DNA from: Rhodobacter capsulatus
GTDB taxonomy: Bacteria; Pseudomonadota; Alphaproteobacteria; Rhodobacterales; Rhodobacteraceae
DNA length: 38,752 nucleotides
Assembly (NCBI RefSeq): GCF_005144475.1
Contig: NZ_SWJZ01000090.1
Span: 1 to 38,752, forward strand
Direction: 5' to 3'
Shown: piece by piece, positions 21,236-36,648 of the stretch
Numbering within the stretch: the first letter of the stretch is position 1
Layout: each line of letters opens with the position of its first letter
Notes under the pieces: model-generated
What the model was told of the DNA's origin: nothing
Databases searched by the model: none
What the model saw: only the letters and a program-made list of their open reading frames with translations
Program-made: the position numbers and the translations under genes

Positions 21236-21967
21236 ATGTCGATCCTTCAAAGCCCGCTCACCCGCAAGCTTTCGGTCTTCGTCGCGCTTTCCGATCGCGA
21301 TCTTGCCACGCTCGAACGGTTCCATCGACGGCGACGGATCTTTCAGTGCGGCCATGAGATGATCCACGAAGGGCAGATGAACGCCTCGGCCTTCATTCTG
21401 GCGCGCGGCTGGGCCTGTTCGTTCAAGATGCTGCCCGACGGCGACCGGCAGATCGTCGATTTTCAGGTGCCGGGCGATTTTCTGGGCCTGCGCAGCATCC
21501 TGTTCCGCACCTCCGACCATTCGATCGAGGCGGTGACGCAGATCGAGGCCTCCGAGGTCATCGCCTCCGACATTCTCGATGCCTTTGCCGATGCGCCGCG
21601 GCTGGCGGCCGCGGTGCTTTGGGCCGCCTCGCGCGACGAGGCGATGGTGGTCGAGCATCTGGTCGATCTGGGCCGGCGCAGCGCCGAGGAACGCACGGCG
21701 CATTTCCTTCTTGAACTCGGGGCGCGGCTGACGCTGGTGGGGATCGGCGACCGGTCCGGCTTCGACTGCCCGCTGACGCAATATCATCTGGCCGATGCGC
21801 TGGGGCTGAGCGCGGTGCATGTCAACCGCGTGCTGCGGCATCTGCGCGAAAAGGGGCTGATCACCTTTCAGAAGGGCCGCGTGCTGTTTGACGATTTCGA
21901 GCGGCTGCGGGCGCTGGCCAATTTCGACACCGGCTATCTTGATCACGAGGGGCCGCTGCTGCACTGA
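21236..21967 (+). CDS. Crp/Fnr-family regulator with atypical recognition helix
   Basis: A 243-aa protein: cupin-like sensor domain at about 15-130 (FILARGWACSFKMLPDGDRQIVDFQVPGDFLG split over two strands), a dimer helix and a C-terminal winged helix-turn-helix (LTQYHLADALGL, SAVHVNRVLRHLREKGLI). Compared with FNR (VETISR) the recognition helix reads AVHVNR: the DNA-contacting Glu becomes Val, Ser becomes Asn, and the Arg is kept. It has no N-terminal Fe-S cysteine cluster and no clear cAMP pocket, so its signal is unknown. GGAAGGA lies about seven bases before ATG 21236. It is encoded at the edge of a stress-gene island containing repeated Fnr-like dyads and may control it. Confidence 0.9.
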   Translation: MSILQSPLTRKLSVFVALSDRDLATLERFHRRRRIFQCGHEMIHEGQMNASAFILARGWACSFKMLPDGDRQIVDFQVPGDFLGLRSILFRTSDHSIEAVTQIEASEVIASDILDAFADAPRLAAAVLWAASRDEAMVVEHLVDLGRRSAEERTAHFLLELGARLTLVGIGDRSGFDCPLTQYHLADALGLSAVHVNRVLRHLREKGLITFQKGRVLFDDFERLRALANFDTGYLDHEGPLLH

Positions 21968-22167
21968 CACCCCGGCCCCAGCGCATGGGCGGCGGAATCA
22001 AGCCGCCGGTTGCACTCGCCCTCCCAGCCCCGGCGCTGCGCCGCTTCGGCGGCCTGAAGGTGCCCTTCGGCCCTGGCCTTCGCAACGCCCGCCGGGGCGG
22101 CGGCGCAGCGCGCGCGGATGGCGCGCATCTTTTCGGCGGTGCTGGGAAACCGCGGTCTGGGCGTCAT
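21943..22167 (-). CDS. 74-aa helical protein, third paralogue of the 63-aa family
   Basis: The frame from ATG 22167 (AAGGA six bases upstream) aligns without gaps to the 63-aa proteins encoded at 29361 and 38375: AEKMRAIRARCAAAPAG, HLQAAEAAQRR and RLDSAAHALG correspond to their AERMKTVKAAWDKAPEG, QYQAAEKAQAA and ALDAAVAALA blocks. It is more basic and diverged, contains three cysteines and has an extra tail GPGCQCSSGPS that overlaps the end of the convergent Crp/Fnr gene by 25 nt. Function unknown; probably a small soluble helical-hairpin protein. Confidence 0.65.
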   Translation of the reverse strand: MTPRPRFPSTAEKMRAIRARCAAAPAGVAKARAEGHLQAAEAAQRRGWEGECNRRLDSAAHALGPGCQCSSGPS

Positions 22168-22241
22168 GGCCTGTCCTTTCCCGGCTGCGGGCCGGAGCCT
22201 GCCGGTTGCGCGCAGCCTAGCCCCCGCGGCGGCGCCGCGGA

Positions 22242-22255
22242 CTGATCGAGATCGG
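22242..22255. promoter_or_regulatory. CTRAY-N4-RTYAG dyad, site 1 (imperfect)
   Basis: CTGAT-CGAG-ATCGG lies 75-88 bp upstream of the 74-aa gene start (22167, minus strand). The right half has one mismatch to ATCAG. It resembles an FNR box (TTGAT-N4-ATCAA) with C/G at the outer positions. Confidence 0.35.
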
Positions 22256-22294
22256 CCCGGCGCGTCGCGACCCGCACCGGCGGCGCTTGCGGGG

Positions 22295-22308
22295 CTGATG
22301 TCGATCAG
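22295..22308. promoter_or_regulatory. CTRAY-N4-RTYAG dyad, site 2 (perfect)
   Basis: CTGAT-GTCG-ATCAG (GCTGATGTCGATCAGC at 22294-22309) is a perfect inverted repeat 54-67 bp before the cupin gene start. A TGATACTCT segment about 30 bp further downstream could be the -10, which would put the dyad near -41, the class II position of Crp/Fnr activators. Confidence 0.55.
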
Positions 22309-22361
22309 CCCGGCGCGGGCGGCGGGCTGATACTCTGGACGCAACAACAGGGAGACGGATC

Positions 22362-22790
22362 ATGCACGGCTTTGTCGGACCGATCGAACGGCTCACGAAA
22401 GACAATGACGCGTTCCGCAGTCCTCTGTTCGGCACGGCGCAGATGGATCTGACGCTGTTTTCCCTGCGCCGCAAGGACAGTCTGGGCGCCGGGGAGCGCT
22501 CGGCATGCGATCAGTTCCTGCGCATCGTCACCGGCAAGGGCCGGATGACGATCGGCGCCACCACCTTTCGCGTGGGCGCGCGGGATGCGATCCTGATCCC
22601 GGCGGGCATGGGCTTCACGCTGCACAACATCGGTCGCAAGCGGCTGCGGGTCTATGCCGTGCAGGCGCATGGCGCCGCCGCCCCTGCGGCCGAGGCCGGC
22701 GGCCGCGCCGCGGCGGCACGGGCCAGCACCGAACGCGCCCGCCAGGACATGATCTCGGAAGGCGGGCCCGCGGATCTCTCCACGCCATGA
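22362..22790 (+). CDS. Cupin-domain protein
   Basis: A 142-aa protein with one cupin barrel at about 25-100. The second cupin motif is clear (DAILIPAGMGFTLHNIG, P-x-G-x2-H-x3-N type). In the first, the usual HxH is replaced by SACDQFLRI, so only part of a metal site remains; the DQF-RI form occurs in several uncharacterised cupins. The C-terminus is Ala-rich. GGAG lies seven bases before ATG 22362. Its stop overlaps the next start as ATGA; it heads a three-gene operon with a DUF6544-like and a BON gene and has a perfect dyad upstream. Sensor or protective enzyme roles are both possible. Confidence 0.85.
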   Translation: MHGFVGPIERLTKDNDAFRSPLFGTAQMDLTLFSLRRKDSLGAGERSACDQFLRIVTGKGRMTIGATTFRVGARDAILIPAGMGFTLHNIGRKRLRVYAVQAHGAAAPAAEAGGRAAAARASTERARQDMISEGGPADLSTP

Positions 22791-23569
22791 CCGCCCCCGC
22801 CATGACCCGCCCCGCCGCCGTCACCGCTCTTGCCCTGCGCCTTGGGGCGGACCCGGACCGGATCTGCGGCCAGGTGCATCTGCGCCAGCATGGCCGGATC
22901 AATCTGGGGCTGCCCCACGACGCCTGGCTTGCCTTCACCGCCGAGGAAATCCTGTCCGTCACCGCCTGCGCCTTTTCCTGGCGGGCCCGGCTTGGCCCGG
23001 CGCAGGCCGTGGTGATGCTTGACAGCCTTGACGCCGGAAAACCGGGCCGGTTCGGCGTCAGCGCCTTCGGCCGGGTGCCCATTCCCTTCGCCCCCCGCCC
23101 GCAGGCGCTGCCGCGCAGCCAGAGACTGCGCTATCTGACCGAATTGCCGCTTGTCCCCGATGCGATGCTGCACAACCGCGCCCTGCGCTGGGAAGAGATC
23201 GACGAGAGCCATCTGCGCGTCGCCACCGGGCTTGGCGCCGAGACGGTCGAGGCGACCTTCACGCTGGGCGCAGAGGGCCGCGTGGCCAGCATCTTCCTGC
23301 CCGATCCGTGGAATTTCTCTTCGCGGCGGGACACGGCGGCGGGCTGGTTCGGCAGCTATGCGGATTACGACCGCATCCGCAACCGCTGGATCCCGTTTCA
23401 CACCGATGTCCATCGCAGGCTTGCCGATCGCAGCATCGGTCTTTGGGTCGCGACGCTCTTTGACTGGCAGATGTCGGGCGACGGCCTCGCTGCGCCGGGC
23501 CCTTCCGCCCCCCGAAGGATGCCGCCCGCCGCGGCGCCGCCTCCCCCCTTGCAAGGAGCCACCCCATGA
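22787..23569 (+). CDS. DUF6544-like protein
   Basis: A 260-aa protein with no signal peptide. The block order resembles the DUF6544 (former DUF6920) family: SWRARLGPAQAVVMLDSL, then LRYLTELPLVPDAMLHNRAL, RWEEIDESHLRVATGL, VEATFTLGAEGRVASIF and a C-terminal DYDRIRNRWIPF. The fold suggests a ligand-carrying beta structure, but no function is established. The start at 22787 overlaps the cupin stop (ATGA) and its own stop overlaps the BON start (ATGA), so the three products are probably made together. The tail is Pro/Ala-rich. Confidence 0.75.
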   Translation: MTAPAMTRPAAVTALALRLGADPDRICGQVHLRQHGRINLGLPHDAWLAFTAEEILSVTACAFSWRARLGPAQAVVMLDSLDAGKPGRFGVSAFGRVPIPFAPRPQALPRSQRLRYLTELPLVPDAMLHNRALRWEEIDESHLRVATGLGAETVEATFTLGAEGRVASIFLPDPWNFSSRRDTAAGWFGSYADYDRIRNRWIPFHTDVHRRLADRSIGLWVATLFDWQMSGDGLAAPGPSAPRRMPPAAAPPPPLQGATP

Positions 23570-24225
23570 TCTCCGATCACGCGCTGAGACTGCAGGTTCT
23601 TGACGAACTGACCTGGGAGCCGATGCTGAACGCCGACAGCATCGGCGTGACCGTCTGCGACGGCGTGGTGTCGCTGTCCGGTCATGTCGAGAGCTACTGG
23701 CAGAAACGGGCGGCGGAAACCGCGATCGCGGGGCTGCGCGGGGTGCGCGCGATCGTCGATTGCATCGAGGTGCGCCTGCCCGATCAGGTGCAGCGCAACG
23801 ATGACGAGATCGCGGCGGCGGTCGCCGACCGGCTCGACTGGGTCGGCGCGATTCCGCGCGGCGCGATCGGGGTTCTGGTCGCGGACGGGGTCGTGACGCT
23901 GACCGGCATGGTCACGCATCAGTATCAGCGCGAGGCGGCCTTTCGGGCGGTCGATCCGCTCTGGGGGGTGCGCGGGGTCGCCAATCAGATCACCATCCGC
24001 GGCGCCCCGCGCGAGACCGGCAAGACCGACCGCGTGCGCGAGGGGATCCGGCGCGCCCTGGCCCGCAAGGGGGTGCTTCCCGACTCGGTGCAGGTCGAGG
24101 AACGGGACGGGACCGTGACCCTTTCGGGCACGGCCCGGTCGCTGCAGGAACACGACATCGCCGTGGCCGTCGCCTGGGCGGCGCATGGCACCACGACGGT
24201 CGAGGACAAGCTCCGCATCGACTGA
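23566..24225 (+). CDS. Triple BON-domain protein, copy 1
   Basis: A 219-aa protein of three BON repeats of about 65 residues (starting near LQVLDELTWEP, EIAAAVADRLDW and RVREGIRRALARKG), each with the V-DG-V-L-G signature. No signal peptide is visible, unlike OsmY. BON domains bind lipids or surfaces and such proteins are typically induced by osmotic or envelope stress. AAGGAG lies seven bases before ATG 23566, which overlaps the preceding stop. A close paralogue lies at 36805-37464 on the other strand, sharing SYWQKRAAET and GVRAIV segments. Confidence 0.92.
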   Translation: MISDHALRLQVLDELTWEPMLNADSIGVTVCDGVVSLSGHVESYWQKRAAETAIAGLRGVRAIVDCIEVRLPDQVQRNDDEIAAAVADRLDWVGAIPRGAIGVLVADGVVTLTGMVTHQYQREAAFRAVDPLWGVRGVANQITIRGAPRETGKTDRVREGIRRALARKGVLPDSVQVEERDGTVTLSGTARSLQEHDIAVAVAWAAHGTTTVEDKLRID

Positions 24226-24285
24226 GCGCGGGGCGCGCGGGCGGGCGCAGCGGGCCCCCGCGATCGGGCCCCGCTGCGGCGCGGT

Positions 24286-24684
24286 TCAGGTGTCCTGCGG
24301 CCGGGCCAGCAGGAAGGAGATGTCGCGCAAGGCCCGGCGGATCAGCTTTTGCTGACGCGCCTGTTGCCCCGGAAAGGTCAGGGCGAATTGCTCGACCAGA
24401 TAGCGCAGCCGCTCGGCCGCCTCAGGCCAGGTCTTCGCCGGTCCCAGAAGCAGCAGCGCATCGACGCCGTCGCGCGGCCCGGGCGCGGTTCTTGCCGGGT
24501 CCAGGCGACCACAGATCGCCCGCCGCACAAGAACCGCGAAGCGGTCTTCCGGATCGCGCCGGTCATCGAGCAGGATCACCTTGAACGAGGCCGCGCAGGG
24601 CGCCGGACCCGGTGCGCAGGGCTGCTGCGGCACCGCCGCCTGCGCGGGACGATCAAGGCCGTCAGGGGGCAATTCGCCGGTCAT
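24286..24684 (-). CDS. 132-aa hypothetical protein
   Basis: Soluble, with a Pro/Ala-rich N-terminus and a helical C-terminal half (TWPEAAERLRYLVEQFALTF, QQKLIRRALRDISFLL). I do not recognise the family. The ATG at 24684 overlaps the preceding gene's stop as TGATG, so it is co-translated with the 113-aa membrane-anchored protein. It is convergent with the BON gene, with about 60 bp between stops. Confidence 0.7.
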   Translation of the reverse strand: MTGELPPDGLDRPAQAAVPQQPCAPGPAPCAASFKVILLDDRRDPEDRFAVLVRRAICGRLDPARTAPGPRDGVDALLLLGPAKTWPEAAERLRYLVEQFALTFPGQQARQQKLIRRALRDISFLLARPQDT

Positions 24685-25025
24685 CACGCCCCCCGGGTCC
24701 AAAGCGCCGCGATGCAGCCCTGCGCCACGGCCCTGTCGAAGCCTGCGCGCAGCGCGCCCGGCAGCCAGCCGGTCTCGATCAGGATCTCAAGCTGTGTCGG
24801 CGGCGCATCCTGACGCAGCGCGGCCAGCTTGACCGCCCGTGCGGGATCGGCCATCGCCTGATCGACGCAGAGCGGCACCAGCGCCCGCACCACCTCCGCC
24901 TCGGCCGCGCGCCGCACGCCGGAGCGGAGTTCCCACCCCGCCCAGACAAAGCCCGTCGCCGCCGTCAGCAGGACGCCCGCAAGGGCACCCACCGCACCCG
25001 GCACGATCCACTCCGGTTTCACCAT
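24684..25025 (-). CDS. 113-aa membrane-anchored conserved protein
   Basis: One N-terminal membrane segment (WIVPGAVGALAGVLLTAATGF, followed by VWAGWELRSG) and a soluble part with VRALVPLCVDQAMADP, LEILIETGWLPG and AVAQGCIAAL. This block order belongs to a common but unnamed alphaproteobacterial family (GF-WGGW, ALVPIC, GWAT, VA--C). AAGGA lies six bases before ATG 25025. It is the first gene of a two-gene unit; a dyad (site 3) lies about 150-165 bp upstream. Function unknown; probably inner membrane with the C-terminal domain on the periplasmic side. Confidence 0.78.
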   Translation of the reverse strand: MVKPEWIVPGAVGALAGVLLTAATGFVWAGWELRSGVRRAAEAEVVRALVPLCVDQAMADPARAVKLAALRQDAPPTQLEILIETGWLPGALRAGFDRAVAQGCIAALWTRGA

Positions 25026-25175
25026 GAGGTTTCCTTTCACGAGAGCGGCGTCCGGCCTCGACACCGGCGCGCAAGCGGGACCGGGCGGCACGCGCCAATC
25101 CCGCTTGCGCGGGGCCGGGCTGTCCGGCGATCGCATGCCCCCGTCACAGGATAGCCCGGCCCCGCGTCGCGAAAG

Positions 25176-25189
25176 CTGATCCGGGTTAG
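25176..25189. promoter_or_regulatory. CTRAY-N4-RTYAG dyad, site 3
   Basis: CTGAT-CCGG-GTTAG (GCTGATCCGGGTTAGC at 25175-25190). Both halves fit the CTRAY half-site. It is 151-164 bp before the 113-aa gene and about 330 bp before the DUF1269 operon. Confidence 0.45.
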
Positions 25190-25259
25190 CCCCGCCTCCG
25201 CCCCCGCCTTTCCGGGCGGCCTCCGCGCCCCCCTTCCTGCGCACGCCCCTTCCCGCGTG

Positions 25260-25289
25260 GTTCTGTCCCGCGCAGTTCTGTCCCGCGCG
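25260..25289. repeat. Two head-to-tail 15-bp repeats
   Basis: GTTCTGTCCCGCGCA followed directly by GTTCTGTCCCGCGCG; the same string differs only in the last base. A third partial copy (GGTTCTGTGCC) lies near 25438. Tandem binding site or replication slippage are both possible. Confidence 0.7.
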
Positions 25290-25521
25290 ATTGCGCCCGC
25301 GCACCAACATGGATCAGCATGCCCCGCCGCGGGTCATGGCAGAGTCGGTCGGCCAGAACCGGGCACCGTCCGGGGAGGGCGCCGGAGCGGGAGAGGGCGA
25401 CGTCCATTCGCCCTTGATCCGGGCCGCAGCCGGGGTCCGGTTCTGTGCCACGCTGTTTTCGCATGCCGTCGCGCCCGCCATCACGGGCGGGCGCGCGGTC
25501 TGCCCATCAAAGGATACGGCC

Positions 25522-26049
25522 ATGCCCGAACTGATCGTGATCGGCTATGCAACCCCCGCGGCGGCCGAGGCGGCCCGCGCCGAAGTCCTTGGCATGGCCA
25601 GGGAATATCTTGTCGAGGTGACCGACGCCGTGGTCGCCACCGTCGATGACGCAGGCGGCATCCGGCTTGCCCAGATGGTCGATCTGCGGGCCGTCGGCGC
25701 GACCGGCGGCGCGTTCTGGGGGCTTTTGGCGGGCATCTTGTTCTTCAACCCGCTTCTGGGCCTTGTCATCGGCGCGACGGCCGGGGCGGTTTCTGGGGCG
25801 CTGGCCGATTACGGGATCGACGACGCCTTCATGCGCAAGGTCTCGGCGCTGTTGCAGCCGGGACATGCGGCGCTGTTTTTGCTGCTGAAAACCCCCGCCT
25901 CGGAGCGGATGGTGACGCGGCTTGGCGCGAAGGGGGGCGAGATCTTGCGCACGAATCTGGACCCCGCCGCGGAAACCGCCCTGCGCGATGCCTTTGCGAC
26001 GGCGCGCGACGGGCTGGGCAAGACCCTGCAAGGGGCCGAGCGTGCGTGA
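25522..26049 (+). CDS. DUF1269-family membrane protein
   Basis: A 175-aa protein: an N-terminal ferredoxin-like part (MPELIVIGYATPAAAEAAR, VTDAVVATVDDAGGIRLAQ), then a hydrophobic glycine-rich hairpin (AFWGLLAGILFFNPLLGLVI, GATAGAVSGAL) and a C-terminal soluble part (LLQPGHAALFLLLK, GGEILRTNL). The pattern is typical of DUF1269, small membrane-associated proteins often grouped with stress genes. AAAGGA lies about eight bases before ATG 25522. It overlaps the following DUF1003 gene by 8 nt; the operon goes on to a transglutaminase-like gene. Confidence 0.9.
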   Translation: MPELIVIGYATPAAAEAARAEVLGMAREYLVEVTDAVVATVDDAGGIRLAQMVDLRAVGATGGAFWGLLAGILFFNPLLGLVIGATAGAVSGALADYGIDDAFMRKVSALLQPGHAALFLLLKTPASERMVTRLGAKGGEILRTNLDPAAETALRDAFATARDGLGKTLQGAERA

Positions 26050-27615: not shown

Positions 27616-27674
27616 GGGCGCCCGGGCCTTGCCCGGCGCAACCGGCCCGGCTGGGGCCATGAAGGAGAGATCCG

Positions 27675-27809
27675 ATGCCCAAGGGCAAGAGCCATTCGAA
27701 CCGCGAAGCGAAGAAACCGAAGCAGCCGAAAAAGCCGGTGGCGGCGAAACCGGCCGATCTGTTCGCCAAGGGCGCGCAGCCCGGTCTGGGCGAGAAGAAG
27801 AAGCCCTGA
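27675..27809 (+). CDS. 44-aa highly basic conserved protein
   Basis: From ATG 27675 with AAGGAGAG seven bases upstream the product is MPKGKSHSNREAKKPKQPKK, a Pro/Ala linker, ADLFAKGAQPGLGEKKKP. Short Lys-rich proteins of the form MPKGQ-RSNKEAKKPK are widespread in alphaproteobacteria; their function is unknown, nucleic-acid binding being a fair guess. It is 59 nt after the transglutaminase-like gene on the same strand. Confidence 0.82.
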   Translation: MPKGKSHSNREAKKPKQPKKPVAAKPADLFAKGAQPGLGEKKKP

Positions 27810-27823
27810 AGCCCCGATCCTGG

Positions 27824-28013: not shown

Positions 28014-28577
28014 TCAGCCGCGGGTCCGCAGGCAGGGCCCGCGCAGATCCTGGAATTCGGCATGCGGCATCGGGGTCTCGCCCCGGGCCAGGCCCAGCCG
28101 GTCCAGCAGCAGCGCCCTGGCGCGGGTGACACGGGCGCGCACCGCCTCGGGCGAGAGCCGGATGGTTTCGGCGGTTTCGCGATGCGTGTAGCCCAGGGCA
28201 CCGACCAGCAAAAGCACGCGCCGGTGCGGCGCCGACAGTTGCCGAAAGGCGTCCAGAACGTCTTCCAGCGCCAGCACGCCGTCATGCGCGGGCAGCGCCA
28301 CCCCGCCGCGCGGGCCCAGCCGATGCAGCACGGCCGCCTCGCGCAGGGCCCTGCGGTGATTGGAAAAATGGATGTTGCGCTCGATGGTAAAAAGCCAGGC
28401 GCGCAGGTTGGTGCCGGGCCGGAAGCGGTCGAAATGCCGAACCGCGCGCAGCATCGTTTCCTGCACGAGATCGTCGGCCCTGTCGGGATCACGGGTCAAG
28501 GCCAGCGCGAAGCGGCGCAGCGCGCCGATGTGCGCGCCGATCCCGGCCGCGGGGACAGGCGGGCCTTGCTCAGTCAT
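28014..28577 (-). CDS. ECF sigma factor
   Basis: A 187-aa group IV sigma factor. Region 2 spans about 15-80 (RADDLVQETMLRAVRHFDRF, PGTNLRAWLFTIERN) and region 4 about 115-165 (LSAPHRRVLLLVGALGYTHRETAETI, VRARVTRARALLLDRL). The GTNLRAWLFTI segment is close to the EcfG general-stress group, but the flanking RKRRRE signature is not intact, so EcfG status is uncertain. ATG 28577 lies inside the end of the upstream 98-aa gene (8-nt overlap), the arrangement typical of a sigma factor and its regulator. No phyR is in the window. Confidence 0.88.
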   Translation of the reverse strand: MTEQGPPVPAAGIGAHIGALRRFALALTRDPDRADDLVQETMLRAVRHFDRFRPGTNLRAWLFTIERNIHFSNHRRALREAAVLHRLGPRGGVALPAHDGVLALEDVLDAFRQLSAPHRRVLLLVGALGYTHRETAETIRLSPEAVRARVTRARALLLDRLGLARGETPMPHAEFQDLRGPCLRTRG

Positions 28578-28866
28578 CGCAAAGCCTGCCCGACAGAAGA
28601 TGTCCCGTCCACCCCGTCCCGACGCCGGGGCCAGTGACTGCGCCAGTGCCGGGGCCAGCGCCGGGGCCAGCACCAAGACCGGCGCCGGGGCTGCGGCTCT
28701 CGACGATCGCGCGCATGCGCTGGATGAAGGCCTCGGTCTCGGCCTGTTCGACGCGCCGCGCCGCCGCGACCGCGGCCTCGGCCCGGTCGGGGGCGGCGCC
28801 GGTCCGGGGGGCACGCTCTGGCCGCTCGGGTCGGGTCTGGTCCAGTCGGGTCGCAGGATCGCTCAT
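28570..28866 (-). CDS. 98-aa protein overlapping the sigma gene
   Basis: The N-terminus is Arg/Pro-rich (MSDPATRLDQTRPERPERAP), a central helix reads AETEAFIQRMRAIVESRSPG, and the C-terminus is a Gly/Ala/Pro/Thr repeat (GLGAGPGAGPGTG and similar) encoded by 12-bp DNA repeats around 28620-28690. AAGGTGA lies six bases before ATG 28866. It does not look like NepR or a zinc anti-sigma factor, yet the 8-nt overlap with the ECF gene makes a regulatory role plausible. Dyad site 4 lies about 205 bp upstream. Confidence 0.65.
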   Translation of the reverse strand: MSDPATRLDQTRPERPERAPRTGAAPDRAEAAVAAARRVEQAETEAFIQRMRAIVESRSPGAGLGAGPGAGPGTGAVTGPGVGTGWTGHLLSGRLCDD

Positions 28867-29360
28867 CCGGGTCACCTTTCGGGTTGGGGCCGCCCGCGGC
28901 GACGGTCGGCCCGGCGCGCCCCGCGGACCAACGGGAGAGGCTGATCCGCGGGCGCGTTCCGGTCTGGCCGTCGCCGCTCGACCGTCCGGAACCAAGGGGG
29001 CCACGATCTTGCGAGCGCGGGCTGGAACGGCCGGTCCGCACAACCTTAACGACTGTGCCGCCCGCGGCCATTACCCAGGTTAGCGCGGCAGATCCGTTTC
29101 GGGCCCGGACCGCGCCCCCCGCCCCGATGCGCCGCGGCAAGACAGAGCTTGCGCCCGCCAGAACCGCCATCGCGCCCCGGGGCAAACCTGCATCAGGATG
29201 CGACTCGGCCCGATCGGCCAGGGTGTCGCATGGCAATCGAATAGCCGCTTGCCCTCGCCTCTGCCCAAAGCCCGGCAAGACGGCCCGGCGCGACGGATCA
29301 TCCCCGTCGACCGGATCGGCACAGCTTGCGGCCGCGGCAGACCGCACAAGGACGAAACCG
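28867..29360. other. 494-bp intergenic region with dyad site 4
   Basis: A non-coding gap between the divergent 98-aa/sigma unit and the 63-aa gene. It holds dyad site 4 (ATTAC-CCAG-GTTAG, 29070-29083, one poor half) and, from 29168, a leader shared with the 63-aa paralogue at the right end of the window. No open frame here has a good ribosome site. Confidence 0.5.
29168..29272 (+). promoter_or_regulatory. Shared leader/promoter block, copy 1
   Basis: About 105 bp, running from CATCGCGCCCCGGGGCAAAC to the AAAGCCC near 29272, is nearly the same as the complement of 38467-38572. Identical cores include CCTGCATCAGG, CGACTCGG and TGGCAATCGAATA. Similarity weakens between the block and the gene but returns just before the start codon (GCGGCAGACCGCAC, AGGACGA). 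Likely a shared promoter/activator region or a structured leader. Confidence 0.7.
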
Positions 29361-29552
29361 ATGAATCTCAACACCATGGCCTCGAACGCCGAACGCATGA
29401 AAACGGTCAAGGCCGCCTGGGACAAGGCGCCCGAGGGCCCGAAGAAAGCGGCGGCGCTGACGCAGTATCAGGCCGCCGAAAAGGCGCAGGCCGCCAAGGA
29501 CGATGCCGCCGTCACCAAGGCGCTGGACGCCGCCGTGGCCGCGCTGGCCTGA
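29361..29552 (+). CDS. 63-aa helical protein, copy 1
   Basis: MNLNTMASNAERMKTVKAAW, then DKAPEGPKKAAALTQYQAAEK and AVTKALDAAVAALA form a probable two- or three-helix soluble protein. AAGGA lies eight bases before ATG 29361. It is highly similar to the protein encoded at 38184-38375 and more distantly to 21943-22167. Function unknown; the charged, alanine-rich helices recall small stress proteins. It is transcribed alone and ends before a terminator. Confidence 0.85.
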   Translation: MNLNTMASNAERMKTVKAAWDKAPEGPKKAAALTQYQAAEKAQAAKDDAAVTKALDAAVAALA

Positions 29553-29565
29553 TCCGACAGGTCCT

Positions 29566-29585: not shown

Positions 29586-29615
29586 GGTGCCGCAGGCCGA
29601 CGACCGGGGGTGCAG

Positions 29616-29635: not shown

Positions 29636-29640
29636 CGCTG

Positions 29641-30315
29641 TCAGCCGGTCAGCTTGCCCTCGCCCACCACGATCCGGCGCGGACAGCTGGCGGCGATCGT
29701 CTCGTCATGGGTCGAGATCAGGAAGGCCGTGCCCTCGTCGCGGTTGATCTGGCCGATCAGCGCCATCACCTGCGCCGCCGCGGCGCGATCAAGATTGCCG
29801 GTGGGCTCGTCCGCCAACACCAGTTCGGGCGCGTTCATCAAGGCGCGCGCCACCGCCACGCGCTGCTTTTGCCCGCCCGAGAGATTGGCGGTGGGAAACT
29901 GGATCCGCGCCGCCAGCCCCATCCGCGCCAGCAGATCCGCCCCCCGCGCCCGCGCCGCGGCGGTTTCGCGCCCGGCCCGGATCGCGGCCGGAAAGACCAC
30001 GTTTTCCAGCGCGGTGAAATCGGGCAGCAGGTTGTGGAACTGAAACACGAAGCCGATGTGGCGGTTGCGGAACGCGGTCAATTCGGCATCGCTGGCCCGG
30101 GTCAGATCGACGCCCAGCATCTCGTGCCCGCCCGAGGTCGGCCGCATCAGCGTGCCCAGGATCGTCAGCAGCGTGCTCTTGCCCGAGCCCGAGGGGCCGA
30201 TCAGCGCCGCCCGCGCGCCGCGCTCCAGCGTCAGGTTGGCGCCGCGCAGCACCCGGGTTTCGGCCTCTCCGGTGCCGAAGGTCTTGACCAGATCGGTGAC
30301 GGTGACAAGGCTCAT
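29641..30315 (-). CDS. ABC transporter ATPase (LolD/MacB type)
   Basis: A 224-aa ATPase. The Walker A is GPSGSGKST (about 41-49), the Q-loop FVFQFHNLL, the signature LSGGQKQRVAVARAL and the Walker B LVLADEPTGNLD, with the H-loop in ISTHDE. TGNLD is typical of the LolD/MacB/FtsE group. The ATG at 30315 overlaps the permease stop (ATGA). With the permease and the HlyD-like gene upstream it makes a tripartite exporter (adaptor, permease, ATPase in order of transcription). Confidence 0.93.
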   Translation of the reverse strand: MSLVTVTDLVKTFGTGEAETRVLRGANLTLERGARAALIGPSGSGKSTLLTILGTLMRPTSGGHEMLGVDLTRASDAELTAFRNRHIGFVFQFHNLLPDFTALENVVFPAAIRAGRETAAARARGADLLARMGLAARIQFPTANLSGGQKQRVAVARALMNAPELVLADEPTGNLDRAAAAQVMALIGQINRDEGTAFLISTHDETIAASCPRRIVVGEGKLTG

Positions 30316-31514
30316 TGGCCGATCGCCGTGACCGGATCAAGCCGCGCCGCCGCCCGTGCGGGCAGGATCGCCGCGGCGATGGCGCAGAGCACCGTCAGCG
30401 TGATCGCCAGCCCATAGGCGCCCTGCGTGATGTCCATCGGCAAGGTGCCGGAGCGGAAATTCTCGCGCGTGGGAAACAGCAAAAGCGCGCCATAGCCGGT
30501 GGCCGCGCCCAAAAGCCCGCCCATCGCGCCGATCAGCCCGCCCTGCAGCACGAAGACGCCGACGACGAAGCGCCGCGACGCCCCCATCGCCCGCATGATC
30601 CCGATCTCGGGGCGGCGGCGATAGGTGGAGAGCATGAGCGAGGAGGCGACGCCGATGACGATGGTGATCATCGCGAAGCTTTTCAGGAAATAGCCGGTCT
30701 GCTTTTGCGCCCTCAGCGCTTCAAGCAGCCGCGCCCCCTCGCGCGTCCAGGACACCGCGGGCAGGCCGGTCAGGCCGCGCAGCCGCGCGGCGCTGGCATC
30801 GGCGGCATAAAGGTCGACCAGCTTGATCTCGATCCGGCTCAGCCCCTGCGGCAGCGCCATCAGGCTGCGCGCGGTGGCGAGGCTGACATAGGCCATGCGC
30901 CGGTCCGCCCCGCCCGCGCCGATTTCGTAGATCCCGCCCAGCGTCAGCCGCATGGTGACGCCGTGGCTCGATTGCAGCACCACGCTTTGATTGAGCGAAA
31001 GGCCCAGATCCTTGACCAGCCCCTTGCCCAGCACCACCACGCCCGCGCCCAGCCGCACCGATCCCGCCACCCGGTAGCGCGCCAGATCCAGGATCGCACT
31101 TTCCCGCCCCGGCTCCAGCCCGACGATCGAGACCTGCGCCACCTGTCCGCCGCGGCGCAAGACGCCCGATCCGATGATCTGCGGCGAGACCGCCTTGACC
31201 CCGGGCAGGGCTTCGATCAGCGGCAGGAAGTTTTCCGCCGCGCGCAGGGTGGCGGTTTCGGTCGTCGGCTGGTCGGCCCAAAGCACGCGGCCCGGCGGCG
31301 GCGCCAGCCGGGCCGGGGTGCGGGCCTCGGCCTCGATCGTCACATGCGCCATGTCGCCCGCCGTGCGCGCCAGGATGAATTCGGCCAGCCCCCCGATCAG
31401 CGCCGACATGAAGATGAAGACGAAGACGCCCGCCGCCACCCCCACCACCAGAAGCGCCGTCTGCGCCTTCGAGGCGCTCAGATACCGCGCCGCGATCTTG
31501 ATGGCATACAACAT
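30312..31514 (-). CDS. MacB/LolE-type ABC permease
   Basis: A 400-aa inner-membrane protein with the four-segment MacB/FtsX topology: first segment near residues 15-45 (TALLVVGVAAGVFVFIFMSAL), a large periplasmic MacB-like domain (about 50-270), and three C-terminal segments carrying MLSTYRRRPEIGIMRAMGAS and RFVVGVFVLQGGLIGAMGG. The ATG at 31514 overlaps the adaptor's stop as TGATG and its stop overlaps the ATPase start. Likely exports a lipophilic compound or peptide, or carries lipoprotein; the substrate is not evident. Confidence 0.92.
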   Translation of the reverse strand: MLYAIKIAARYLSASKAQTALLVVGVAAGVFVFIFMSALIGGLAEFILARTAGDMAHVTIEAEARTPARLAPPPGRVLWADQPTTETATLRAAENFLPLIEALPGVKAVSPQIIGSGVLRRGGQVAQVSIVGLEPGRESAILDLARYRVAGSVRLGAGVVVLGKGLVKDLGLSLNQSVVLQSSHGVTMRLTLGGIYEIGAGGADRRMAYVSLATARSLMALPQGLSRIEIKLVDLYAADASAARLRGLTGLPAVSWTREGARLLEALRAQKQTGYFLKSFAMITIVIGVASSLMLSTYRRRPEIGIMRAMGASRRFVVGVFVLQGGLIGAMGGLLGAATGYGALLLFPTRENFRSGTLPMDITQGAYGLAITLTVLCAIAAAILPARAAARLDPVTAIGQ

Positions 31515-32584
31515 CACTTGCCCTCCTCGCGCAGGATTTGTCCGTCGTGCAGGCCGGTGCTGTCGGTGATCACCCGGTCCCCGGGCGCCAACCCCGCGGT
31601 GACGATCAGCCGTTCGGCGGGCCAGTCGATCACGCGGACCGGCGTTGCGACCGCGCGCCCCGCGCGCAGCACGAAGACCGCTCCGCCTGTCAGAGCCGTG
31701 CGCGGCACCGTCAGCGCGGTGCGGCTGTCGATCACCACATTCGCGGTGACGGTCAGCCCGACCGGGGCGCGGACCGGCGCATCGAAGCCGATCTTCACCG
31801 CCAGCCCGCCGGTGTCCGGGTCCACCCGCGGCGCGACGGTCTCGACCGTGCCCATCCGGGTCTCGGCGCTGCCCAGCAGGAGCAACCGCACCCGCTGCCC
31901 CGGCGCGATCTGCAGCGCATAGGTTTCGTCCACGTCGGTCTCGACGCGCAGCCGCGCCAGATCGGCCAGGGTGAAAAGCGTCGTCGCGGTGTCGACGCGC
32001 TGGCCCGGATCGACCGCCCGCGTCAGCACCGTGCCCGCGACCGGCGCGCGCAGGGTATACCGGTCCAGCACGACCCGGGCCTGATCGCGCAGCGCGGCAC
32101 GGCCCGCCACCTCCTGCGCCGCGCCCGCAAGGCTGCGGCGGGCGTCGTCCAGCGTCACCTGCGCCACCTGTGCCCCCAGATCGCGGTTGCGCCCGAAGTC
32201 GGCCGCCGCCTGCGCCTGCAAGATCACCGCCTGCGCCAGCGCCGCCTCGGCCTGCCGCAGCACCGCCGCCTGGTGCCGGAGATCGAGCCGCGCCAGCACC
32301 GCGCCCGCCGGGACGACATCGCCCGCCTCGACCTCCACGTCTTGCACGACATCGCCCACCGCGGCGCGGATCGCCACCCGGGCGCGCGGGGCGATCTTGC
32401 CATTCACCGCCAGAACCCGCGTCACCGGCCCCGGCGTCATCGTCTCGACCGCCACCAGCGGCGGACGCGCGGCGCGCAGCTGCCACCACAGCGCCAGCCC
32501 AAGGCAAAGCAGCGCCGCCACCGCAAGAACAACCGGACGGCGCCAGCGCGGACGGTCTTCGGGAGGGGGGGCAAGCTCGGGCAT
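31514..32584 (-). CDS. HlyD/MacA-family membrane-fusion adaptor
   Basis: A 356-aa adaptor: N-terminal anchor (VVLAVAALLCLGLALWW), a lipoyl/barrel-sandwich half near 60-95 (VQDVEVEAGDVVPAGAVLARL), a helical hairpin (about 100-165) and a second lipoyl half (YTLRAPVAGTVLTRAVDPGQ), then beta-barrel and MP domains. It spans the periplasm to link the permease to an outer-membrane channel; no TolC gene is in the window. The start is ATG 32584 (GGAAGG ten bases before). Dyad site 5 lies 58-72 bp upstream, shared with the divergent MgtC-like gene. Confidence 0.9.
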   Translation of the reverse strand: MPELAPPPEDRPRWRRPVVLAVAALLCLGLALWWQLRAARPPLVAVETMTPGPVTRVLAVNGKIAPRARVAIRAAVGDVVQDVEVEAGDVVPAGAVLARLDLRHQAAVLRQAEAALAQAVILQAQAAADFGRNRDLGAQVAQVTLDDARRSLAGAAQEVAGRAALRDQARVVLDRYTLRAPVAGTVLTRAVDPGQRVDTATTLFTLADLARLRVETDVDETYALQIAPGQRVRLLLLGSAETRMGTVETVAPRVDPDTGGLAVKIGFDAPVRAPVGLTVTANVVIDSRTALTVPRTALTGGAVFVLRAGRAVATPVRVIDWPAERLIVTAGLAPGDRVITDSTGLHDGQILREEGK

Positions 32585-32642
32585 CGGGCGGGGGCCTTCC
32601 GGGCGGATCGCCGCCAGTTTAACGCCCGCCGCCGCCGCCGGG

Positions 32643-32656
32643 CTGACCTGGATCAG
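32643..32656. promoter_or_regulatory. CTRAY-N4-RTYAG dyad, site 5
   Basis: CTGAC-CTGG-ATCAG (GCTGACCTGGATCAGC at 32642-32657) is centred between the divergent exporter operon (start 32584) and the MgtC-like gene (start 32714). It is 58-71 bp from the latter and 59-72 from the former, so one site could serve both. Confidence 0.55.
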
Positions 32657-32713
32657 CGACACCGCGCGCGGGACATGCCCTGATGCCCCCGCCCCCGCAA
32701 CCCCGAGGCCCCG

Positions 32714-34000
32714 ATGGACAGCGCCCCCCTCCTCGTTCCCGCCCTTCTCGGTCCCGCCGTTCTTGGTCCGCCCGTGCTGAACATGGTCAGCGCGCTGGCC
32801 GTGGGCGCGCTGATCGGCGCCGAGCGCGAGCGGCGCAAGGGCGCGGGCCCGGCCCGCGCGCCCGCCGGGATCCGCACCTTCGCCATCGCCTCGACGGCGG
32901 GGGCGGTCGGTTTCGCACTGGGCGGGGTGGTGCTGCTTTCGGTGGTGGCCGCCTGTGTCGCAGCGATGCTGGCGGTGGCCTACAGCAAGCGGCCGCATCA
33001 GGATCCCGGCCTGACCACCGAGATCGTGCTGATCCTGACCGTGCTTCTGGGCGGGCTGTGCATCCCCTCGCCGCAGATGGCGGCGGCGATCGCGGTGACG
33101 ATCACCGGGCTGCTTTACGTCAAGGCCTGGCTGCACAATCTGGTCACCACGCTGATTTCCAAGGACGAACTGGACGATGCGCTGATCTTTGCCGCGGCGA
33201 CGCTGGTGATCTTGCCGCTGGTGCCGGATCGGCCGATGGGGCCCTGGCACGCGCTCAATCCGCATGCGGTCTGGATCGTGATCGTGCTGGTGATGGGCAT
33301 CGGCGCGGCGGGCTATCTGGCGGTGCGGCTTCTGGGGGCGCGGTTCGGGCTGCCGCTGTCGGGGGCGCTGTCGGGGTTCATTTCCAGCACCGCGACGATC
33401 GGCGCGATGGGCGCGCGCGCGCTGCAATCGCCCGAGCTGCGTCCGGCCTGCGTCGCCGGGGCGGTGCTGTCGTCCGTCGCGACGATCGCGCAGCTGGCGC
33501 TGGTGGTGGCGGCGATCAGCCTGCCGACCCTGTCCGCCCTGACCCTGCCGCTGGTCTGCGCCGGTGCCGCCGCGGCGCTCTACGGGGTGGCGCTGACACT
33601 GGCCGCGCTGCGCCACCCCGCGGGCGAGGGCACGCGCGGCGGCAGCGCCTTCAGCCTGCGCGCGGCGCTGGCCTTCGGCTCGATCCTGGCGCTGGTGCTG
33701 GTCGTCTCGGCCGGGCTGCAGGCGCAGTTCGGCGGCTCGGGCGTGCTGCTGGCCGCGCTGGCGGCGGGGCTGGTCGATACCCATGCGGCGGCGATCTCGG
33801 TCGCCACGCTTGTCGCCGCGGACAAGGTCGCCCCGGCCGATGCGGTGGCGCCGATCCTGGCCGCTGTGACCTCGAACACGCTGAGCAAGATCCTTGTGGC
33901 GGCGGTGGCGGGCGGCCGCGCCTTCGCCCTGCGGGTGGTGCCCGGCCTTGTGCTGATCGTCCTTGCCGCCTGGATCGGCACCCTCGCCCTGCCCGGCTGA
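32714..34000 (+). CDS. MgtC/DUF4010-type membrane protein
   Basis: A 428-aa integral membrane protein with about 11-12 segments. The N-terminal MgtC-like half has SALAVGALIGAERERRKG, PAGIRTFAIASTAGAVGF and GLTTEIVLILTVLLGG. The C-terminal half is DUF4010-like, with GFISSTATIGAMGARA and HAAAISVATLVAA. MgtC relatives modulate Mg or ATP homeostasis under stress; this double form is uncharacterised. Only a weak GAGG precedes ATG 32714. A hairpin follows the stop. Confidence 0.88.
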   Translation: MDSAPLLVPALLGPAVLGPPVLNMVSALAVGALIGAERERRKGAGPARAPAGIRTFAIASTAGAVGFALGGVVLLSVVAACVAAMLAVAYSKRPHQDPGLTTEIVLILTVLLGGLCIPSPQMAAAIAVTITGLLYVKAWLHNLVTTLISKDELDDALIFAAATLVILPLVPDRPMGPWHALNPHAVWIVIVLVMGIGAAGYLAVRLLGARFGLPLSGALSGFISSTATIGAMGARALQSPELRPACVAGAVLSSVATIAQLALVVAAISLPTLSALTLPLVCAGAAAALYGVALTLAALRHPAGEGTRGGSAFSLRAALAFGSILALVLVVSAGLQAQFGGSGVLLAALAAGLVDTHAAAISVATLVAADKVAPADAVAPILAAVTSNTLSKILVAAVAGGRAFALRVVPGLVLIVLAAWIGTLALPG

Positions 34001-34043
34001 CGGCCGCCTTCGCGCCTGCGGTGATCGGCCCCGGACCGGCTCA

Positions 34044-34071
34044 TTTCCGGGTTGTTTTGAAAACCCGGAAA
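34044..34071. other. 10-bp hairpin after the MgtC-like gene
   Basis: TTTCCGGGTT pairs perfectly with AACCCGGAAA across an 8-nt T-rich loop, 43 nt after the stop. No T-run follows on the plus strand, so it may be a processing barrier rather than a full terminator. Confidence 0.45.
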
Positions 34072-34077
34072 GAATCC

Positions 34078-34105
34078 TTGCAAAACCTGCAAATTCCGCT
34101 ATGCA
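34078..34105 (+). promoter_or_regulatory. Probable csp promoter
   Basis: TTGCAA (34078-34083), 16 bp, TATGCA (34100-34105). Transcription from here would give a 5' leader of about 115 nt before the cold-shock gene, as expected for cold-regulated mRNAs. Confidence 0.5.
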
Positions 34106-34227
34106 AGGAGGTGCGAAGTATTCCTGACCGCACCCTGTCTCCTTCATCGGCTTCAGTCTGCTCTTAGTTCTGACCAAGCCGAGCTGCCGCATTCTGCGGG
34201 CAGCATCCCCATGAAGGAGTGATCACG

Positions 34228-34434
34228 ATGGCCAATGGCACCGTGAAGTTTTTCAACCAGAACAAAGGTTTCGGTTTCATCGAGCCGGAAGGTGGCGCGC
34301 AGGACGTGTTCGTCCACATCTCGGCGGTCGAACGCGCGGGGATCTCGCGCCTGGCCGATGGCGCCAAGGTGACCTTCCAGATCGAGTCCGGCCGTGACGG
34401 CCGCAAATCGGCCTGCGATCTGGCTCTGGCCTGA
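34228..34434 (+). CDS. Cold-shock protein (CspA family)
   Basis: A 68-aa single cold-shock domain with the RNP1 motif KGFGFIEP (residues 13-20) and RNP2-like DVFVHIS (about 27-33), after the usual start MANGTVKFFN. It binds single-stranded RNA/DNA and melts secondary structure at low temperature or in stationary phase. AAGGAG lies eight bases before ATG 34228; a GTG at 34219 in frame is less likely. The long leader suggests post-transcriptional control. Confidence 0.95.
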   Translation: MANGTVKFFNQNKGFGFIEPEGGAQDVFVHISAVERAGISRLADGAKVTFQIESGRDGRKSACDLALA

Positions 34435-34464
34435 TCCGGACAGGCACCCTTCGGGGGCCGGCAC

Positions 34465-34668
34465 ATGTCCATGACACGCACGACACCTTCTCCCGGATTG
34501 TTCCGGGAGATCCCCCGCCCGCCGCAGACCTATTTCGAGATGACGGCCGCGGCGGCGAAACTGATCGTCCAGACGGAAGCCGCCAGCCGGGCCGACCGCA
34601 GCGCCACGCTCAAGGCGCAACGCCTTGCCCGTGACGCCGCCGCCCGCGGCGCAAAACCGTCGCGCTGA
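34465..34668 (+). CDS. 67-aa hypothetical protein
   Basis: It begins MSMTRTTPSPGLFREIPRPP and continues with QTYFEMTAAAAKLIVQTEAAS and a basic helix LKAQRLARDAAARGAKPSR. Soluble, mostly helical, not a family I recognise. Only a G-rich string (GGGGGCC) precedes the ATG, 31 nt after the csp stop, so it may be read from the csp promoter. Confidence 0.6.
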   Translation: MSMTRTTPSPGLFREIPRPPQTYFEMTAAAAKLIVQTEAASRADRSATLKAQRLARDAAARGAKPSR

Positions 34669-35060
34669 CGACCCATCTCCATCCCCGGAGAGCGCCGAAC
34701 CAGAGGCGTCGAACGGGGGCGGTTCCCGACACGCCCGGCCCCGGTCGTTCGACCTGCGGACGATGGCCCCGGCTTCCCGGCAAAAGCGTCGAGGCGGCCA
34801 GGCTGCTTGCGCAGGCAAGCCGCCTCCGCCGGACCACTCAACCTTGAGGGAGGCGGCGCGGGGAAACCCACGCCGCCTTTCCCATGTCATGCGGCGCCAA
34901 AGGCGAGCACATCGGCCCCGCGACACCGAAACCGCCGGATCCGAGCGCTTTTCCGAACCCGTCCGCGGGCCGGAGCCAATCGGCAGCGGCCGTCCTGGTC
35001 GCGCCCCCGGCGCCTGCCCTGGCCGCGCCGAGAGGTCCCGCGCTCTGGTGCCGGGCCTCG
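34669..35060. other. 392-bp gap with hairpins
   Basis: No frame with a credible start was seen. The notable structure is AGGCGGCG/CGCCGCCT (34851-34878) enclosing GGG-AAA-CCC and followed by TTCCC on the plus strand, a possible terminator for the csp/67-aa unit. A second imperfect stem-loop (about 34792-34826, AGGCGG/CCGCCT with an inner CTTGC/GCAAG) precedes it; the two might form a structured 3' RNA. Confidence 0.45.
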
Positions 35061-35201
35061 TCAATTTCCGTCGATCGTGACGCCGTGCTCGTTGATCTTG
35101 ATGTCAACGCCGCTCTGGCGTTCCTGATAATACAGATAGCCGGTCCCCGCCGCGACCACGGCCAGAACACCGATCAGCAGAAACAGAAAATTGCGGCTCA
35201 T
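35061..35201 (-). CDS. 46-aa single-pass membrane protein
   Basis: From ATG 35201 (AAGGA eight bases upstream) the product is MSRNFLFLLIGVLAVVAAGT, GYLYYQERQSG and a hydrophilic tail VDIKINEHGVTIDGN. It has one N-terminal membrane segment with the short charged tail probably outside the cytoplasm. Small proteins of this form (tail with DI-I---G--I) occur in many Rhodobacterales; function unknown. Ribosome site, codon bias and a clean stop support it. Confidence 0.8.
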   Translation of the reverse strand: MSRNFLFLLIGVLAVVAAGTGYLYYQERQSGVDIKINEHGVTIDGN

Positions 35202-35301
35202 GATGCGTCCTTCAGCGGGTTTCGGGCTTCAGACCATGCGTGAAGCCGGCGCGGATGTGACAGGGCACCGGACCATTCCGCGGCGCCCCGTTTCTCGGGG
35301 T

Positions 35302-35475
35302 CTACGCGTCGCGGATCGTGTCCTTGATGCCGCCCACAGCGTTCTGGATCTTGCCCGCGACCTTTTCGGCCTCGCCTTCCGTCTCAAGCTTCTTGTCGCC
35401 GATGGCCTTTCCGATCGCCACCTTGGCCTTGCCCTTGACGACCTTTGCGGAACCGGCAATCCGATCCTTGTCCAT
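35302..35475 (-). CDS. CsbD-family stress protein
   Basis: A 57-aa protein, MDKDRIAGSAKVVKGKAKVA, then IGKAIGDKKLETEGEAEKVAG and KIQNAVGGIKDTIRD, the standard CsbD layout. CsbD proteins are strongly induced under general or osmotic stress; their action is unknown. AAAGGA lies about eight bases before ATG 35475. Upstream is a candidate GGAAC-N16-CGT promoter and dyad site 6, so stress-sigma control with an activator is plausible. Confidence 0.93.
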   Translation of the reverse strand: MDKDRIAGSAKVVKGKAKVAIGKAIGDKKLETEGEAEKVAGKIQNAVGGIKDTIRDA

Positions 35476-35515
35476 GATGTTTTCCTTTCAGGGGGGTCAT
35501 GCGGGCGGCAGGGTC

Positions 35516-35539
35516 ACGTTCGATCCTGACGCCCGTTCC
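35516..35539 (-). promoter_or_regulatory. Candidate GGAAC-N16-CGT promoter of csbD
   Basis: On the minus strand GGAAC (complement of 35535-35539) and CGTGAC (from 35518) are 16 bp apart. EcfG-type general stress promoters are GGAAC-N16/17-CGTT; the fourth -10 base differs here. The inferred start site leaves a leader of about 30 nt before csbD. Confidence 0.4.
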
Positions 35540-35569
35540 GAACTATGGGGCCACGCCGTCCGGTCGGCA

Positions 35570-35583
35570 TTGACGCAGGTTAG
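35570..35583. promoter_or_regulatory. CTRAY-N4-RTYAG dyad, site 6
   Basis: TTGAC-GCAG-GTTAG lies 95-108 bp before csbD and about 30 bp upstream of the GGAAC box, near -68 of the inferred start site, a usual class I activator distance. The left half has one mismatch. Confidence 0.42.
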
Positions 35584-35748
35584 CGCGATCATGACTGCGC
35601 CAGGAGCCCGGGACAGCGGCGCGCGCCAAGCGGGCGCGTCGACCAGGTCGCAATCCCTCATTCCGGTTCCGTCCCCGGAGCCGTGAAGATCGGGCGGTCG
35701 GTGAGCGGAGCGGATTTCCCCCGCCCCGCTCTGGCCGGCAGGGGCGCG

Positions 35749-36582
35749 TCAGAAGGAATAGACGAGCGAGACCCCCAGCTTGTTCTCGGTCTTGACGGCG
35801 CGCGAGTCGTTGTACTCCGTCAGGTAGCTGATGCGGGTGGCGAACATGTCGGTCATCTTCACGTTCAGCCCCAGATCGTTGTTCACCCGTGTCGCGGTGT
35901 CCGACTCCAGGATATCAGTGTCATTCGTGGCGAAAAGCTTGTCGTTCAGCCGCCAGAACAGCCGCGACGAGGCGATGTAGCCGGTTTCGGTCACAGAGTC
36001 CTCAAGACCGTCCTGCAGATAGCTGACCCCGATGCCCGCCTGCACCCGCCAGCTCAGATCGCGGGTGTTGACAATGCGGTAGCCGGGGCCGACCCCGAGG
36101 AAGGCGTCGGTCTTGACGTCGTCGGCGGTGGCGGCAAGCCCGTCGGTCTTCACCCGGCCAAGCACGAAGCCGTAAAACGAGTCGTTGAAGTAGTAATTCG
36201 CGTCATAGATGAAGAAGGTGTCTTCCTTGGTCTTGTCGGAGTCGAATTCGGCAAAGTCCAGCACCATGCCGAGGTTCTGCACGAACGGGCCATTGGCAAA
36301 ACGCAACCGCGCGCCCAGGCTGAATTCGCTTGAATCCGTGGCGCCGGTCTTGCCCGCGTAACTCAGCGAGGCGCTGCCCGACATGCCCTCGCGATAGTCC
36401 GGGCTGCCGTAGCGAAAGGCATCGTTGCCGCGATCGAGGTCGATCTGCGCGGCGCGGTCGATGTCGTCGATGCGGTCGTCGACCGAATCGATGCCAACCA
36501 GCGCCGTTTGCGCAAGGGCCGCAGGCACGCCAAGCGCCAGCGCGGCAATCGTCGTGCCTGCCAGAAGAAGAATTCGGGTCAT
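35749..36582 (-). CDS. DUF481-family outer-membrane beta-barrel protein
   Basis: A 277-aa exported protein: signal peptide MTRILLLAGTTIAALALGVP with cleavage after ALAQ, then alternating amphipathic strands rich in aromatic and Asp/Asn residues (GSASLSYAGKTG, YYFNDSFYGFVLGRVKTDGL, SRLFWRLNDKLFATNDT) ending in LGVSLVYSF with the C-terminal Phe typical of barrel proteins. DUF481/YdiY proteins are induced by acid or salt stress in enterobacteria; function unknown. The start is ATG 36582 (AAAGG nine bases before). Dyad site 7 lies 53-66 bp upstream. Confidence 0.9.
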   Translation of the reverse strand: MTRILLLAGTTIAALALGVPAALAQTALVGIDSVDDRIDDIDRAAQIDLDRGNDAFRYGSPDYREGMSGSASLSYAGKTGATDSSEFSLGARLRFANGPFVQNLGMVLDFAEFDSDKTKEDTFFIYDANYYFNDSFYGFVLGRVKTDGLAATADDVKTDAFLGVGPGYRIVNTRDLSWRVQAGIGVSYLQDGLEDSVTETGYIASSRLFWRLNDKLFATNDTDILESDTATRVNNDLGLNVKMTDMFATRISYLTEYNDSRAVKTENKLGVSLVYSF

Positions 36583-36634
36583 GGTATGAACCTTTCGGAA
36601 AATCGGAACGTCCGGGCTGGACGCTTGCCGCAAC

Positions 36635-36648
36635 CTGACCCGGATCGC
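36635..36648. promoter_or_regulatory. CTRAY-N4-RTYAG dyad, site 7 (imperfect)
   Basis: CTGAC-CCGG-ATCGC, 53-66 bp before the DUF481 start. The right half has one or two mismatches, but the distance equals that of sites 2 and 5. Confidence 0.38.

Follow-up and report, generated by a model that had tools for sequence, protein, structure and literature searches.

Which DNA sites are read by the Crp/Fnr-type regulator encoded in a stress island of Rhodobacter capsulatus, and which genes may be under its control? The regulator (243 aa; positions 21236-21967, plus strand) lies in a window of 38,752 nt (contig NZ_SWJZ01000090.1 of assembly GCF_005144475.1; 69% GC, no tRNA found in the window), for which an original prediction had proposed that the protein, through its recognition helix AVHVNR, reads intergenic dyads of the form CTRAY-N4-RTYAG. 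The protein belongs to the Crp/Fnr superfamily, its 255-aa frame scoring over the Pfam cut-offs for HTH_Crp_2 (61.7 bits; cut-off 27) and cNMP_binding (42.7 bits; cut-off 27.5). As far as sequence comparison can tell, it very probably serves a portable stress module as its dedicated activator, reading CTRAY-N4-RTYAG. We infer binding and activation from the site statistics and the promoter layout; only the gene content points to stress as the signal.

The motif proved to be strongly enriched in intergenic DNA. In the window, three strict matches occurred (22295, 25176, and 32643), with 0.14 expected and with at least three in none of 100 shuffles. The discovery set comprised the window and the DNA (at most 20 kb each) around 40 orthologs of the protein (65-95% identity), genes being called with a simple custom script, with approximate starts and intergenic borders and with one faulty call in the window corrected by hand. 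The called intergenic DNA of this set contained 90 strict sites, the reversed pattern occurring four times, shuffled sequence giving a mean of 1.1 and a maximum of five over 20 shuffles, and spacers other than N4 giving zero to four matches each. A blind ranking of all 1024 half-sites at spacings of 3 to 8 placed GCTGA-N6 and CTGAT-N4, which are one site in two registers, second and third. With the pattern already fixed, 20 held-out loci yielded 27 intergenic strict sites, distributed over 16 loci, and no reversed ones. Similarly, 80 named loci, 14 of which had already been used and were dropped from the motif count, left 66 further loci with 136 strict versus no reversed sites, in 58 loci; eight of the 66 (from Oceanicaulis, Oceanibaculum, Thalassospira, Rhodobium, Hoeflea, and Filomicrobium) contributed nine sites in six loci. 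The original prediction had staked itself on an excess over shuffled sequence and on conservation in relatives, and both were found: the sites are intergenic and far above the shuffled and reversed controls, and they recur in the ortholog loci and in a close relative (G002; regulator 95% identical) that was aligned with the window.

The whole genome of the strain contained 33 strict matches, namely the three in the window, all intergenic, and 30 outside it, of which 27 were within called genes and three were not. A genome-wide regulon is therefore unsupported. Judged by these counts, the better window sites are far above chance yet confined to the island, and the regulon is local; the original prediction is partly supported, being right in principle. 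The 27 coding matches, together with the chance-like behaviour of one window dyad (36635, discussed below), are what a reading of the dyads as chance matches in GC-rich DNA could draw on. For the set, although not for single weak sites, this reading is excluded by the shuffles, the reversed pattern, the other spacers, the held-out loci, and the promoter spacing described below, and its probability is negligible.

The sites also follow the protein. No strict site was present in 35 kb of intergenic DNA from 18 control loci, taken from genomes scored as being without the protein; two of these genomes (G011 and G015) carry a distant Crp/Fnr protein (32% identity), and two loci had been excluded from the control set (L178, as G002 has the protein, and L179, as part of L177). 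Genome-wide counts of the symmetric pattern were too noisy for this purpose (24-39 in four genomes of the genus with close orthologs, 10-31 in 14 others), and the asymmetric form CTAAC-N4-RTCAG was used in its place. Across 394 genomes of the family, 87 of which have the protein at E<=1e-50, this form averaged 3.11 per genome with the protein versus 1.64 without it (p 4e-12), its reversed control not being higher with the protein (4.21 versus 5.49).

The recognition helix offers an explanation for the form of the site. It reads A-(V/I)-H-(V/I)-N-R in 40 of the 41 aligned orthologs and S-V-H-V-N-R in the remaining one, which means that the position of the Glu with which CRP and FNR read the third half-site base pair is taken by Val or Ile in 41/41 orthologs, the Arg being kept. 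CRP mutants at Glu181 alter the preference at the base pair concerned. That pair is G4:C4 of TGTGA, contacted by Glu181 and Arg185 (PMC11253593). The strict sites have either G or A as the third half-site base, and with Val or Ile in place of Glu, that pair may be either; the outer base of the half-site is C in place of T. The helix argument of the original prediction thus fits the orthologs and sites alike. A literature search for the helix string VHVNR, itself a weak one, returned no match, and an AlphaFold model of the regulator (mean pLDDT 59) was set aside. Could the sites instead belong to a different Crp/Fnr paralog, such as FnrL or a Dnr protein, the local protein having other targets? 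The core TGAY-N4-RTCA is common to these sites and FNR boxes, and a few sites have TTGA-type halves. However, the FNR box TTGAT-N4-ATCAA was absent from the intergenic DNA of the discovery and held-out loci and occurred once in the 66 further loci, the sites track the local protein across the family, and its own promoter carries one, all of which makes this alternative quite improbable. The local protein itself is neither an FnrL equivalog (68 bits versus a cut-off of 300) nor a CRP (cAMP receptor) equivalog (25.9 bits versus 266), and the Glu plus Arg helix and TTGAT-N4-ATCAA sites of FNR, FixK, and DNR are not its own, the Glu being replaced and that site form being absent or single. Each of the 41 orthologs has one to three cysteines, none of them thus having the four that hold the [4Fe-4S] cluster of FNR and FnrL. 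Cys61 and Cys178 are invariant in 15 aligned orthologs, Cys178 immediately preceding the helix-turn-helix, and a redox switch formed by this pair is possible.

Class II activators bind a site centred near -41.5 and keep a fixed spacing to the -10 element. Among 322 strict site-gene pairs (identical sites with identical flanks merged, as in the asymmetry counts below), a hexamer TAnnnT started at +29, counted in bases from dyad centre to hexamer start, in 71 pairs versus 0.78 at other offsets, with nine at +28 and five at +30. At the +29 hexamer position, A occupied -11 in 73% and T occupied -7 in 53%. Counted by target family, the hexamer was found at +29 in 18 of 41 families versus 0.71 at other offsets. 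A dyad centre at -41.5 puts this hexamer at -12 to -7, and the geometry is therefore that of class II Crp/Fnr promoters. A Crp/Fnr dimer bound to CTRAY-N4-RTYAG near -41.5 would replace the -35 element and recruit RNA polymerase to promoters that keep the -10 hexamer, so that, by promoter geometry, the regulon would be activated. Polymerase can also be blocked by a protein bound across the -35 region, and the regulator might repress through the same sites; this is unlikely, as a repressor would tolerate many spacings, whereas the single fixed -10 spacing found here is a hallmark of class II activation. The dyads might also be ECF sigma promoter elements or be bound by another co-inherited factor, for instance a 77-aa protein encoded divergently from the regulator (20832-21065, minus strand) whose family is present in 37 of 41 loci. 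This alternative is very improbable, given that both the geometry of the dyad and its spacing at -41.5 are of the Crp/Fnr type, that the ECF sigma factor family was found in just three loci, and that no fixed offset stood out sharply for GGAAC elements (top count 6). Taken together, the sequence statistics establish the motif, its tie to the protein, and the promoter spacing.

In addition, the regulator may occupy its own promoter via a conserved imperfect site. The predicted operator (21150-21163; CTGATCCAGAGCAG) is shared with the divergent 77-aa gene and is identical in G002. Toward the regulator, TATGAT stands at +29 (TATGAG in G002); toward the 77-aa gene, TAGAGT stands at +28 in both strains. 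A strict site or the variant CTGAY-N4-RGCAG was present upstream of 36 of the 41 orthologs (not L043, L057, L058, L062, and L072) and, in an overlapping set, of 61 of the 80 named loci (8 strict and 53 variant, with 18 other forms and one locus without gene call). Variant sites had the hexamer at +28 toward the divergent gene in 30 of 73 cases; toward the regulator, the consensus bases at +29 and +30 were still T and A. The conserved mismatch suggests a weaker site maintained by selection.

Several observations weigh against an activator acting in this way. Four of the 20 held-out loci were without a strict site; 251 of the 322 strict pairs had no TAnnnT at +29; the hexamer also occurred at 13 of 183 sites without a called gene facing them, perhaps because of unlisted genes; and the variant own-promoter sites had TAnnnT at +28 or +29 toward the regulator in only 5 of 78 cases. 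Furthermore, orthologous promoters are kin to each other, so that the counts are not independent, and the loci were picked by presence of the protein, which leaves room for some other factor inherited along with it, the 77-aa protein for example.

Among 245 distinct strict sites, 170 combined CTAAY with CTGAY, 70 had CTGAY twice, and five had CTAAY twice, versus 114, 98, and 33, respectively, expected from half-site frequencies. When the CTAAY half was upstream, 38 of 132 sites were accompanied by the +29 hexamer, versus 5 of 92 when this half was downstream (Fisher 5e-6). CsbD genes form an exception, the CTAAY half being downstream in 16 of 17, with -11A and -7T still present in 14 of 17. 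Here too, related promoters are not independent of one another. Tentatively, and with doubt prevailing, the system may be a self-contained module with its own operator code and directional operator, passed among alphaproteobacteria and in part plasmid-borne. In that case two unlike half-sites would be read by the protein as a homodimer or paired with a second protein, for instance the 77-aa one, whereby promoter direction would be encoded in the operator. At E<=1e-30, 66 of 72,556 plasmid records carried relatives of the protein, 18 of them with 60-80% identity, and the two plasmids examined were typed as conjugative and mobilizable. In the plasmid loci L275 and L276, the regulator adjoins a groEL, hflK/hflC, rimK, fatty acid desaturase, or transglutaminase gene, transfer genes being nearby.

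Within the window, the regulator gene and the 77-aa gene divergent from it would be likely targets, as would three KAAWDKA genes, a cupin gene, and the gene 24684-25025, with an efflux-type operon and a CsbD gene as further likely targets and an ECF sigma operon as a perhaps. The seven dyads originally proposed were all found in place, 22295, 25176, and 32643 as exact matches, 22242 and 35570 with one mismatch, and 29070 and 36635 with two. A scoring matrix, whose training set of 110 sites drew on the window as well as on the 40 loci, ranked 32643, 25176, 22295, 35570, 21150, 38544, and 29183 best, the last three being additions to the proposed list; 22242 ranked tenth and 29070 twentieth. In G002, 22242, 32643, and 35570 are identical, and 22295 and 25176 retain both half-sites. 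The predicted operator 22295-22308 (CTGATGTCGATCAG) precedes the cupin-domain gene (22362-22790, plus strand; Cupin_2 over cut-off), with TACTCT (22331-22336) at +29 (TAGTCT at +29 in G002). The nearby predicted operator 22242-22255, which in the window as in G002 has TAGGCT at +29 on the minus strand, fits a small open reading frame (ORF) outside the gene calls (21943-22167, minus strand; 74 aa) of the KAAWDKA family, with a profile match of 55 bits and a 68-aa ortholog in L042. This ORF is convergent with the regulator gene and overlaps its 3' end by 25 bases. The predicted operator 25176-25189 (CTGATCCGGGTTAG) lies between a DUF1269 gene and the gene 24684-25025 (minus strand; 113 aa, without Pfam match); on the minus side, TATCCT stands at +29, replaced by TATCGT in G002, and no such hexamer is present on the plus side, the 113-aa gene being the predicted target. 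For 32643-32656 (CTGACCTGGATCAG), the proposed MgtC-like target gives way to the operon encoding an HlyD adaptor, an FtsX permease, and a protein that we take from its sequence to be an ABC ATPase (29641-32584, minus strand). Indeed, TAAACT stands at +28 on the efflux side (TAGACT in G002), and TAnnnT is absent from the MgtC side. The predicted operator 35570-35583 (TTGACGCAGGTTAG) faces a CsbD gene of the short type (35302-35475, minus strand; 57 aa, PF05532 over cut-off); in G002 as in the window, the minus strand has CATAGT at +29.

Two added sites with one mismatch, 29183-29196 (CAAACCTGCATCAG) and 38544-38557 (CTGATGCAGGTTTG; 10.7 bits), are predicted operators of KAAWDKA genes of 63 aa (29361-29552, plus strand; 38184-38375, minus strand). 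Both have CAGGGT at +29, which fits in -11A and -7T only; 29183 stands 164 bp 5' of the start (147-164 in relatives, 309 in one). The products of the two genes are 74% identical, and the stretches 29183-29552 and 38184-38557 match upstream in site, CAGGGT, and a common CATGGCAATCGAATA; they are likely a duplicated unit. A weak predicted operator of moderate support (29070-29083; ATTACCCAGGTTAG; 5.8 bits) points toward the ECF-type sigma factor gene (28014-28577; sigma70-ECF over cut-off) and the gene upstream of it (28570-28866; together 28014-28866, minus strand), with TAAGGT at +28 on the minus strand and TAGGGT at +28 in both aligned G002 copies, in one of which the site is better formed. 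The dyad before the DUF481-like gene (36635-36648) was dropped as an operator: it scored 2.5 bits, outside the best 25, and both halves are altered in G002 despite 95% identity across the surrounding 328 bases; GACGTT at +29, with -11A and -7T, speaks in its favour. Two similar proteins, presumably of BON type as named from their sequences, flank the island (23566-24225, plus strand; 36805-37464, minus strand), suggesting internal duplication.

Across the 40 loci and the window, several families had a site at most 350 bp upstream: a 141-aa family (20 of 23 loci), one of 104 aa (17 of 23), KAAWDKA (14 of 23), the short CsbD type (9 of 11), and, each in 7 of 8, an OmpA/glycine-zipper protein and DUF3185. 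Furthermore, the KAAWDKA family occurred in 54 of the 394 genomes, all 54 having the regulator, and DUF3185 over cut-off in ten genomes, again all with the regulator, one below-cut-off match (G250) being without it. CsbD was uninformative as a presence/absence control, PF05532 mostly catching the other CsbD type (MNWDQIEGKW...), for which strict sites were absent from genomes with and without the protein alike; of the few short-type genes in that control, one had a near-strict site, two had weaker ones, and two had none.

For an apparently uncharacterised, widespread Crp/Fnr subfamily, these results predict the operator, the layout of its promoters, and a set of targets, and they provide several orphan small-protein families with hypotheses on function. 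They also describe a natural substitution at a specificity-setting helix residue, paralleled by a change in the sites, and suggest that stress genes carry their own wiring along as they spread. FNR/FnrL, FixK, and DNR of alphaproteobacteria, which recognise TTGAT-N4-ATCAA according to Dufour et al. 2010 (PMC2908626), have in common with the present system the Crp/Fnr fold, the 5-N4-5 dyad, and the TGAY-N4-RTCA core. They differ from it in that the present sites have C as outer base and G or A as third base, the helix has Val or Ile for Glu, the four-cysteine iron-sulfur set is lacking, and a stress island is involved rather than anaerobic metabolism. Similarly, the best match among solved structures, FixK2 of Bradyrhizobium (PDB 4i2o; E 1.2e-16), has Glu in the aligned helix where the present protein has Val. 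Groups A, B, C, and G of the same study (PMC2908626) are likewise widespread alphaproteobacterial Crp/Fnr proteins without an FNR-type helix, described there as uncharacterised and with motifs predicted from their own promoters, and the present protein likely belongs to one of them. Lastly, the alphaproteobacterial general stress response (PhyR-NepR-EcfG) also comprises stress-type genes such as CsbD, and the island has an ECF sigma gene; unlike the sigma promoters of that response, the island is predicted to use a Crp/Fnr protein with dyads.

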